Positions 22,575 to 24,819 of a stretch of 43,130 nt of DNA are shown one piece after another (position 1 is the first letter of the stretch; each line of letters starts with the position of its first letter). The position numbers and the translations under genes were made by a program. The notes beneath the pieces were generated by a model, which did not search any database, had not been told where the DNA came from, and saw only the letters and a program-made list of their open reading frames with translations. The DNA is from a virus. The stretch is taken from the IMG/VR virus record IMGVR_UViG_3300044993_000266, positions 1 to 43,130 of that record. One strand, given 5' to 3'.

Positions 22575-22942
22575 CCTGTCGGCCCCGTGATGGCGCGCCG
22601 GATCGGCACGGTGGCGTCCTGATCGTCCGGCAGGATCATCTCGGCCGGGTCGGCGACATAGCCGGGCGGCACCACGACGCGAAACCGGTCGGGTACGGCG
22701 CGCGGGCCTGGATCGTAGAACACCAGCACCTCCTCGTGATCGATGACCAGGCGGCAGGGCCGGTCGGGATGGCCGCTGCGCCCGGCCAGGCGGTTGCGGA
22801 TCGTCACCACTGCCCAGATGTCGGGATTGTCGGAGAGCGCGATCTCGACGCTGGTCTGGACGGCGGGCGGAAAGCCGAAGCCGCAGTAGACCTGCGCGGC
22901 AGCGGGGCTGGCGAGCAGGGCCAGTGCGGCGGCGCGGATCAT
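22571..22942 (-). CDS. Secreted hypothetical protein with signal peptide (123 aa)
   Basis: MIRAAALALLASPAAAQ is a clear signal peptide with an AxA cut site. The mature part has three Cys and beta segments (SVEIALSDNPDIWAVVTIRN, RLVIDHEEVLVFYDPG). It is exported to the periplasm; the function is not evident. Exclusion of other phages or a change to the host envelope is possible but not shown. Coupled by ATGA at both ends. Confidence 0.65.
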   Translation of the reverse strand: MIRAAALALLASPAAAQVYCGFGFPPAVQTSVEIALSDNPDIWAVVTIRNRLAGRSGHPDRPCRLVIDHEEVLVFYDPGPRAVPDRFRVVVPPGYVADPAEMILPDDQDATVPIRRAITGPTG

Positions 22943-23163
22943 CGCCGCCCCCGCACGCCGAGGCGGCGCATGGCGCGGTAAAGGCTCACCCGCTGCAATC
23001 CGGCCAGCTGGACGGCTTCGGAGGGGTTTCCGCCGGTGCGGGCCAGATAGTCGGCGATCACCTCCCGCTCGAAGCGGTCCCGGGCCTCATCCAGCGGCAG
23101 CGTGGGGTAGGCCTTGACGTGCAGCAGGACCGCGCGCGCGGCAGACCAGTCGCGGGCGGTCAT
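22939..23163 (-). CDS. Fis/NtrC-type helix-turn-helix protein (74 aa)
   Basis: ATG 23163 overlaps the methyltransferase stop by ATGA. The C-terminal half is the HTH_8 (Fis) pattern: RFEREVIADYLARTGGNPSE, AVQLAGLQRVSLYRAMRRLG. Fis-type domains usually end NtrC-like activators; here it is alone, so it probably bends or organises DNA or regulates a promoter. Confidence 0.82.
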   Translation of the reverse strand: MTARDWSAARAVLLHVKAYPTLPLDEARDRFEREVIADYLARTGGNPSEAVQLAGLQRVSLYRAMRRLGVRGRR

Positions 23164-24527
23164 GCTGCGGCCTCCGGCGGCGCGCCAGTCATAGCAGCAC
23201 CTCTTGTAGCGGCTCCCGCGCTTTTGCCTGCGGCGGCGCCCAGATCCACGGGCCCGAGGCCATGGGCAGCTGCGAGAGCGCGCCACGCATGAGCTGCTGC
23301 CAGCGGATGAACTCCGTTTCCGAGCAGGCGCAGAGCGCGTGTCCGATGGGCCAGCCCATCAGCCATCCGACGAAGAGCGGGTTCAGCCGCCGCCGTGCCC
23401 GGCCCTTCCACAGCCGCAGCCAGGTCGCGCGCCCATGAGACGCAATCAGCGAGGCTCGTAGCGGGCGCCAGATCAGGCGCAGTTGCGAGAGCGTCGGCCC
23501 ATCCGGTGGCGTCGCTTGGGCCGGGTGGGAAAAGCCCTGCTCGGCCCGGTAATGCAGCAGGTCCATCCGGCTCTTGCCGTCCGCGCGGACCAGGCTGTCC
23601 GGGCTGCTGCCCTTGACGTTCTGCGCCGCTGGCGTCGGCCATTGCGCTGCCTGCGCCGGAAGCGGCGGCATCCCGCCCGATCCGTAGACCTGGGCCGGGC
23701 CGCCCTTCTCCCCGTCCGATCCCTTCGGGGTGGACCATGAGCAAGCTTGCCCTTCCAGCGTCAGCCTTTCGGCGCTCTTCCGGCCCCCGTCCCGGGTGTA
23801 TTCCCCCGTGGACACGCGTGGCGTCATCCACGGCGCCCCCGCCAATACCATCGTCCGTCGGGTAAAGTCGTTGTTCCCCGCCGCGCTGTTCCCGTTCTGC
23901 GCCGGAGTGCCCGCCATCGGGGTGGGCCATTGCAATGCCAAGTCTTGCAGTGTCGGATTTGTGCGCTGCCCCAGCAGGGGGCCGTCTGGCGCCTGCCGAT
24001 TGCTGACCGTCGCTGTCGCGGTAGGCCACGCAAAACCAGCGCAATCGTTCGTGCGGCGCGCCGACTTCAGCCGCCGAGAATGCGCCAGCCGCAGGCGTCC
24101 AGCCCATATCCCATAGCTCTCGCAGCACGGTTTCAGCGCCGAGGCTGATGTGGCCCGCAACGTTTTCGAGGAACACCCATCGGGGTTCGACCTCGCGGAT
24201 GATCCTGGCCACCTCAGGCCACAGGTGCCGCTCGTCGTCGGCTCCCTTGCGCTGTCCGGCTGCGCTGAAAGGCTGGCACGGGTATCCGGCAAGGATGGTA
24301 TCAAAGGCGCCGCGGAAAGGTCGCCCGTCGAAGGTGGTGACATCATCCCAGATCGGGGCGGGGGCGAAGTATCCGGCCCGCTGGGCGGCGATGAGGACGG
24401 TGCGGGGCCATTCCTCCCACTCGACGAAGCAGCGGGTGTGGAATCCCGGCTCGGCAAGCATGAGGCCCATATCCAGGCCTCCGCCGCCTGCGCAGAGGGA
24501 CAATCCGTTCCGGGGACGTAGCACCAT
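23160..24527 (-). CDS. C5-cytosine DNA methyltransferase (455 aa)
   Basis: ATG 24527 (MVLRPRNGLSLCAGGGGLDM). Motif I is GLSLCAGGGGLD (8-19), motif IV is GYPCQPFS with catalytic Cys84, motif VI is ENV (121-123), and motif VIII-like is EVGAPHERLRWF. Motif X GNGVHPLAAAHAW is near residues 403-415, so this frame is complete from I to X. It methylates cytosine C5, probably to escape host restriction. The part from about 24030 to 23189 is also open and well-formed in a second frame (separate entry). Stop overlaps the Fis-type start by ATGA. Confidence 0.85.
   Translation of the reverse strand: MVLRPRNGLSLCAGGGGLDMGLMLAEPGFHTRCFVEWEEWPRTVLIAAQRAGYFAPAPIWDDVTTFDGRPFRGAFDTILAGYPCQPFSAAGQRKGADDERHLWPEVARIIREVEPRWVFLENVAGHISLGAETVLRELWDMGWTPAAGAFSAAEVGAPHERLRWFCVAYRDSDGQQSAGARRPPAGAAHKSDTARLGIAMAHPDGGHSGAEREQRGGEQRLYPTDDGIGGGAVDDATRVHGGIHPGRGPEERRKADAGRASLLMVHPEGIGRGEGRPGPGLRIGRDAAASGAGSAMADASGAERQGQQPGQPGPRGRQEPDGPAALPGRAGLFPPGPSDATGWADALATAPDLAPATSLADCVSWARDLAAAVEGPGTAAAEPALRRMADGLAHRTRALRLLGNGVHPLAAAHAWRALAAAHGLGPVDLGAAAGKSAGAATRGAAMTGAPPEAAA
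23189..24031 (-). other. Alternative reading frame over the methyltransferase C-terminal half
   Basis: This frame has stronger third-position GC than the methyltransferase frame and carries motifs usual for the C-terminal region of phage cytosine methyltransferases: WPTPMAGTPAQNGN, SWSTPKGSDG, WPTPAAQNVKGSS, RRLNPLFVGWLMGWPIGHA and CSETEFIRWQQLMRG. It is +1 relative to the methyltransferase frame; a run of four T on the minus strand (24032-24035) is a possible shift site. Either a frameshifted longer product, or a truly dual-coding stretch, would explain it. Confidence 0.5.
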
Positions 24528-24528
24528 G

Positions 24529-24819
24529 TCACGCTCCGCTCCCCATGTATGGGCGCCCCTTGGGGGCTGGCGGGCACGGCATGACACCGCGCCCGCCGTG
24601 GCCCCGGCCAGGCAATGCGGATGCCGGAGGCAGAGCCGCAGACGGGTCGAGCGCGGGTGCGGGGGCGTGGCGCCCACGGCGGGTTCCGCACTGTGCTGAC
24701 AATGCCGCCGCGCTCGGGTGGTGCATCCGGCGCTTGAACCGCTCTGTCCCGGCCTCTGAGCAAAGGTCGCGCGGGATGGATGCACCGCCGGAAAGCGGCA
24801 AAGGGTCGAGGACGCTCAT
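24529..24819 (-). CDS. Small hypothetical protein before the methyltransferase (96 aa)
   Basis: ATG 24819 overlaps the upstream stop by ATGA and the stop lies one base before the methyltransferase ATG, which supports translation through it. The N-terminal 35 residues have good codon bias (MSVLDPLPLSGGASIPRDLC); the rest is Ala/Pro/His-rich without structure. Possibly only a short coding part or a coupler for the next gene. Confidence 0.5.
   Translation of the reverse strand: MSVLDPLPLSGGASIPRDLCSEAGTERFKRRMHHPSAAALSAQCGTRRGRHAPAPALDPSAALPPASALPGRGHGGRGVMPCPPAPKGRPYMGSGA

Follow-up and report, generated by a model that had tools for sequence, protein, structure and literature searches.

A probable frame-split, two-chain m5C methyltransferase encoded by two overlapping reading frames of a phage

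Does a stretch of phage DNA in which two reading frames remain open almost end to end encode one protein or two and, if two, what might the second one contribute? The question is raised by the window, the whole 43,130-nucleotide stretch analyzed, which comes from an IMG/VR virus record (IMGVR_UViG_3300044993_000266) carrying terminase, portal, tape measure, DnaB-like helicase, and RusA genes. Two of its minus-strand frames, A and B, contain no stop before their own ends, compared with 11 stops in the third forward frame over the same stretch. Frame A (24527–23160, minus strand, 455 residues) starts with an ATG (24527–24525) and was recognized as an m5C methyltransferase catalytic chain from its matches to PF00145 (residues 8–173, E = 1e-31) and phrog_363 (residues 8–420, reaching motif X). 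Frame B, in the +1 register, is open from far upstream down to its stop at 23189 and would yield a protein of 447 residues (24532–23189, minus strand) if the GTG at 24532–24530 is used, a start suggested by the start codon kept at position −8 in relatives and lying 5 nt from that of A. The sequences ggggag and ggag upstream of these GTG and ATG codons were judged by eye to be ribosome-binding sites. B matches phrog_27243 (E = 3e-71), phrog_1008, and phrog_31772; at the thresholds applied, Pfam, NCBIfam, and PADLOC contained no family matching it. The view of the earlier note, made from the letters alone, that both frames are open and family-like is borne out by these matches.

Within A, the catalytic loop PCQPFSAAG (24255–24281, minus strand) and the sequence GAPHERLRWF (24033–24062, minus strand) are located in what we take to be motifs IV and VIII, respectively, the latter adjoining the site (24032–24035) at which a programmed +1 shift had been proposed. 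Motif X, previously claimed for the 455-residue frame, is present as LGNGVHPL (23324–23301, minus strand) and overlaps the CSETEFIRW sequence of B (23326–23300). The third-position GC content over 23189–24035 is indeed higher in B, as had been noted (0.82 versus 0.60 in A), with values of 0.71 (B) and 0.76 (A) in the catalytic core. The ORF of a Fis-type HTH_8 protein (22939–23286, minus strand, E = 3.5e-8) overlaps the ends of both A and B.

The register between the two frames is conserved far beyond the window, with B found in +1 to A at 314 of 315 scored loci (158/159, 77/77, and 79/79 in three sets) at GC contents of about 33–71%. The first set, the window's group, was obtained with the window's B as the query, which identified 80 viral loci and another 80, mostly of Rhodobacteraceae, in genomic sequences; with the window it comprises 161 loci, of which 159 were scored after L042 and L079, where one frame had no match, were dropped. 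Its sole exception (L117) looks like an indel. Queries with the B proteins of Paenibacillus phage Shelly and Xanthomonas phage PhiXhv-5 led to the second set of more distant loci (GC 33–69%, including four annotated records), in four of which (L216, L218, L219, and L233) the B frame closes within 16–38 codons where the B match begins. A profile of the distant B proteins then added 79 loci (GC 35–71%, median overlap 250 codons). In a phage collection, tblastn found 75 records with the Shelly B and 214 with the Xanthomonas B, the register being checked for part of these. As loci L001–L324 were chosen by likeness to B or as hand-picked phage records, the counts are silent on the share of m5C methyltransferases that lack B.

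Both coding sequences have been deposited for phages Shelly ("internal gene"), PhiXhv-5, and Escherichia K1ind2 ("Mte8-like"), all three in the same +1 arrangement as in the window, and the records seen give no functional reading. Only A is annotated in Erwinia phage EhrS_59 and only B in Synechococcus phage Ssp-JY39 and Pseudomonas phage phPA-G; in Escherichia phage Bas72 the B frame is open.

Selection was assessed by classing single substitutions between independent sequence pairs by their effect in both frames, the first letter of each class referring to A, the second to B, and N denoting a residue change. Values are given as NS/SS and NN/SN for A and as SN/SS and NN/NS for B, under a simple model (kappa 2, no codon bias) in which the SS counts are small in places. 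For the window's group, 59 pairs were drawn from the 123 of 152 sequences kept at <93% identity, with codons numbered by A of L007 and seven loci (L019, L022, L075, L078, L105, L117, and L142) excluded from the codon alignment. Over A codons 1–130, A alone is constrained (A 0.23/0.06, B 2.68/0.66), and confident constraint on B in this group begins only at about codon 131 (codons 131–165, A 0.12/0.09, B 0.56/0.41). The pattern is reversed over codons 166–270, where B alone is constrained (0.04/0.05) and A is nearly neutral (0.70/0.81). Codons 271–288 give an NN/SN of 0.20 for A and an NN/NS of 0.60 for B, and both frames are constrained over codons 289–345 (A 0.30/0.17, B 0.15/0.09), followed by A 0.78/0.19 and B 0.60/0.15 over codons 346–372. 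Codons 166–270 correspond to the region between motifs VIII and IX, located at 23529–24028 of the window (minus strand) by likeness to the relatives, which contains the WPTP-type repeats of B at 24028, 23932, 23830, 23737, and 23644. Comparison of the window with its four nearest relatives mostly fits this map, with an NN/NS of 0.08–0.19 for B in the middle region.

The same test on 56 distant pairs gave A 0.09/0.04 and B 2.98/1.36 before B, A 0.15/0.10 and B 0.55/0.35 between the point where B opens and the first WPTP, A 0.63/0.36 and B 0.35/0.20 from WPTP to LNP, A 0.19/0.14 and B 0.19/0.14 from LNP to the end of B, and A 0.19/0.05 and B 2.32/0.66 after B. In this distant set, B is therefore selected inside and not outside its own frame, and the C-terminal part is shared between the two. 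The alignment to relatives and the test of each frame that the earlier note had called for thus show a kept register and purifying selection on both frames, and its suggestion of genuine dual coding holds, over A codons 289–345 and again in the distant pairs. The two-frame use that it placed in the C-terminal half is real, but the double use extends beyond that half. It is highly improbable that only one frame is real, the other being either open by chance in GC-rich DNA or an artefact of a frameshift. The high GC content of the window's group and the near-neutrality of each frame in parts would fit such an origin, but the same arrangement occurs at 33–45% GC and both frames are constrained over the C-terminal part; a chance open frame was rejected on register, GC range, and constraint.

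The methyltransferase motifs are partitioned between the two frames. In pattern counts over 308 loci, motif IV was found in A at 296 and motif X in A at 292 and in B at 5, whereas motif IX was found in A at a single locus (L178, an indel case) and in B at 281. In the window, the motif IX-like element of B, RRLNPLFVGWLMGWPIGH, was located at 23339–23392 (minus strand) by pattern and profile alignment; the A residues opposite to it, AEPALRRMADGL, are also constrained. The conclusion of the earlier note that the 455-residue frame is complete by virtue of its motif X does not hold, as A has no recognizable motif IX. The motif IX pattern was composed after inspection of B, and an independent alignment therefore matters. 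This was provided by Gordonia phage JKSyngboy gp4, which carries a methyltransferase core, the motif IX element, and LGNGVVP in one frame; two B profiles, A1 and A5, align with its LSPVFVEWMMGLPRGW (E = 8.8e-6 and 7.5e-6, respectively). Against two standard methyltransferases the B profile reached E = 0.34, and the aligned part was motif IX. Mycobacterium phage DarthPhader gp79, in +1 to the core-bearing gp80, matches phrog_1008 (E = 5e-73) and holds PTP repeats, EWMMGWPEGW, and GNGV together in one chain. Taken at the level of motifs, these alignments indicate that B in the window's class has the motif IX that is missing from A.

Two further features of these relatives were observed. In JKSyngboy gp4 (L405:1438–2502) the +1 frame is still open over a long stretch, with PTP repeats and without motif IX, and the DarthPhader gp80/gp79 pair (L244:1501–2512) has a short +1 overlap with motifs IX and X in the second chain, as in M.AquI.

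The m5C methyltransferases have a variable recognition region between motifs VIII and IX (PMC3404938), and the VIII–IX region of B is probably the target recognition part. The evidence points to A and B being complementary parts and not the two C-termini of different target recognition suggested in the earlier note, because B has the VIII–IX region and motif IX and A is nearly neutral in the VIII–IX region.

How B is started bears on the programmed +1 frameshift near motif VIII, which would produce an A–B fusion besides full-length A. Among 122 sequences of the window's group, 112 have a start-capable codon 8 nt ahead of the reference codon of A (ATG in 109; GTG in the window), and this position usually lies directly after a TGA (110/122). 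Only 4 B-frame stops were seen over A codons 1–130, whereas 100 synonymous shuffles gave 154 on average and never fewer than 127, and the B frame is stop-free there in 121 of 123 genes, where 29.8 would be expected; the +2 frame had 253 stops against 315 expected. The sequences are related and not independent, so that this depletion is strong yet carries no formal probability. For 69 distant loci, the observed count of 0 stops is true by construction, the stretch having been defined as open, so that information there comes solely from the expected numbers and the per-locus chances. At 140 distant loci, the first B start lies a median of 2 codons past the frame-opening stop, and pairing with the 16S tail at these starts was −5.7 kcal/mol compared with −2.8 kcal/mol at control positions, with 40 of the 140 starts within the best 5% of controls.

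Independent starts for A and B are likelier than a programmed frameshift, because B-frame stops are depleted, the −8 start is kept, and ribosome-binding sites accompany the internal B starts of the distant members. In the window's group, constraint does pass from one frame to the other around motif VIII, and two singletons (L117 and L178) have indels joining the A core and B; both points speak for a frameshift. On the other hand, the B frame is already poor in stops upstream of the proposed site and begins with a conserved start or ribosome-binding site of its own; in the distant members, where B is constrained only within its own frame, that constraint begins before the first WPTP. The programmed shift, which the earlier note had put forward, is accordingly judged quite unlikely and was set aside as the main model on these grounds. 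L117 and L178, in which A core and B lie in one frame, may be real fusions or sequence errors.

Two close known systems are M.EcoHK31I and M.EaeI, and the genes of M.EcoHK31I are nested in different frames. Like A and B, M.EcoHK31I has two m5C chains with motifs I–VIII and X in the larger and motif IX alone in the smaller, a likeness of described motif layout (PMC3404938). The predicted target recognition domain of M.EcoHK31I is said to lie in the larger subunit (PMC3404938), whereas in the present pair A is nearly neutral and B constrained over codons 166–270. M.AquI, also a two-chain m5C methyltransferase (PMC3404938), has motifs IX and X in the smaller chain and an overlap that is not end to end, in contrast to B, which has motif X at only 5 of 308 loci; the DarthPhader pair looks nearer to M.AquI than does that of the window.

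A total overlap of two C5 methyltransferase products has been described for Streptococcus thermophilus 5093-group phages and earlier for S. pneumoniae phage MM1 and Tn5252 (PMC5601072), likewise two products of one DNA in different frames. The second product is in +1 in both MM1 and P0093. Unlike the window's class, these streptococcal-type loci have motif IX in A (74/79) and none in the nested frame (0/79). Such constrained nested frames exist where A has all motifs, and nested proteins therefore need not supply motif IX, which would favor B being an independent nested product that acts in regulation or counter-defence and is not part of a methyltransferase. We regard this as unlikely for the window's class, where motif IX is in B and not in A and where one-frame and split relatives carry the same element as methyltransferase sequence.

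The streptococcal-type nested +1 frame (L325–L404; MM1, L242:7631–8056) lies over the core, and spans at least 130 codons at 78 of 79 loci, with constraint within the frame (0.53/0.29) and none past its end (1.45/1.51). Residues 82–134 of the MM1 nested product (L242:7631–8053) show a weak match (E = 0.001) to positions 239–291 of 407 in a type II methyltransferase profile from PADLOC, as would be seen if this segment belonged to the main frame elsewhere.

Structure prediction gave poor models of B alone. AlphaFold2 produced a mean pLDDT of 59 for the B protein of L176 (47 alignment rows) and 54 for the C-terminal 303 residues of the window's B (41 rows). Fold searches of the PDB with these models returned no match at E ≤ 0.001, and a viral fold library gave three at that threshold (one named as a methyltransferase, one uncharacterized, and one unnamed), all with low TM scores. 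A PDB profile search with B yielded only weak matches to unrelated proteins. Assignment of B to a known fold was set aside, as the models were poor and the PDB fold searches empty. Such models might fit a protein that needs its partner in order to fold.

Collectively, the locus is best read as a frame-split, two-chain m5C methyltransferase like M.EcoHK31I with separately started chains, an interpretation from sequence comparison that we consider probable. It is favored by the conserved register, the regional constraint, the stop depletion and starts, the presence of motif IX in B and not in A, the JKSyngboy alignment, the joint occurrence of PTP repeats, IX, and X in DarthPhader gp79, and the lack of motif IX in nested frames whose A has its own, and by the precedent of M.EcoHK31I, in which only motif IX is described for the smaller polypeptide (PMC3404938). 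Against it stand the poor B models, the lack of a PDB fold match, the first ∼130 residues of B, which look unconstrained in the window's group, the motif IX pattern having been composed with B in view, and the stated placement of the predicted M.EcoHK31I recognition domain in the larger subunit (PMC3404938). In the frame-split reading, one DNA stretch would give two proteins in two frames from independent starts, 5 nt apart in the window's group; A would be the catalytic chain, with motifs I–VIII and X, and B would add the missing VIII–IX region (probably for target recognition) and motif IX. The two would associate into one active methyltransferase that may mark the phage DNA, probably as a shield from host restriction. 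Each frame would be largely filler, kept open, in the stretches where the other is at work.

An enzyme of two chains with a separately placed motif IX is already known and overlapping phage methyltransferases are in print; what is new is how widely the pair is spread, how nearly end to end it overlaps, and how constraint alternates between the frames. Neither the breadth nor a constraint map of the overlap was found in the open-licence papers searched. It is uncommon for a long overlap on one strand to have selection demonstrated in both of its frames. The balance tips slightly toward a standing class of phage m5C methyltransferase spelled across two frames, in which the order VIII–recognition–IX–X is kept while the working text switches frame. 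By the same reading, and with the same slight preference, the two nearly end-to-end overlapping proteins would be one enzyme with alternating filler, and the arrangement would have been retained over time by phages of Bacillota, Pseudomonadota, and cyanobacteria. If so, gene callers that allow one coding sequence per stretch would, across many phage genomes, lose half an enzyme, and assaying A by itself for activity would be misleading; the family would also offer a natural series of one methyltransferase element changing frame, with motif IX in A, motif IX in B, and motifs IX and X in B.
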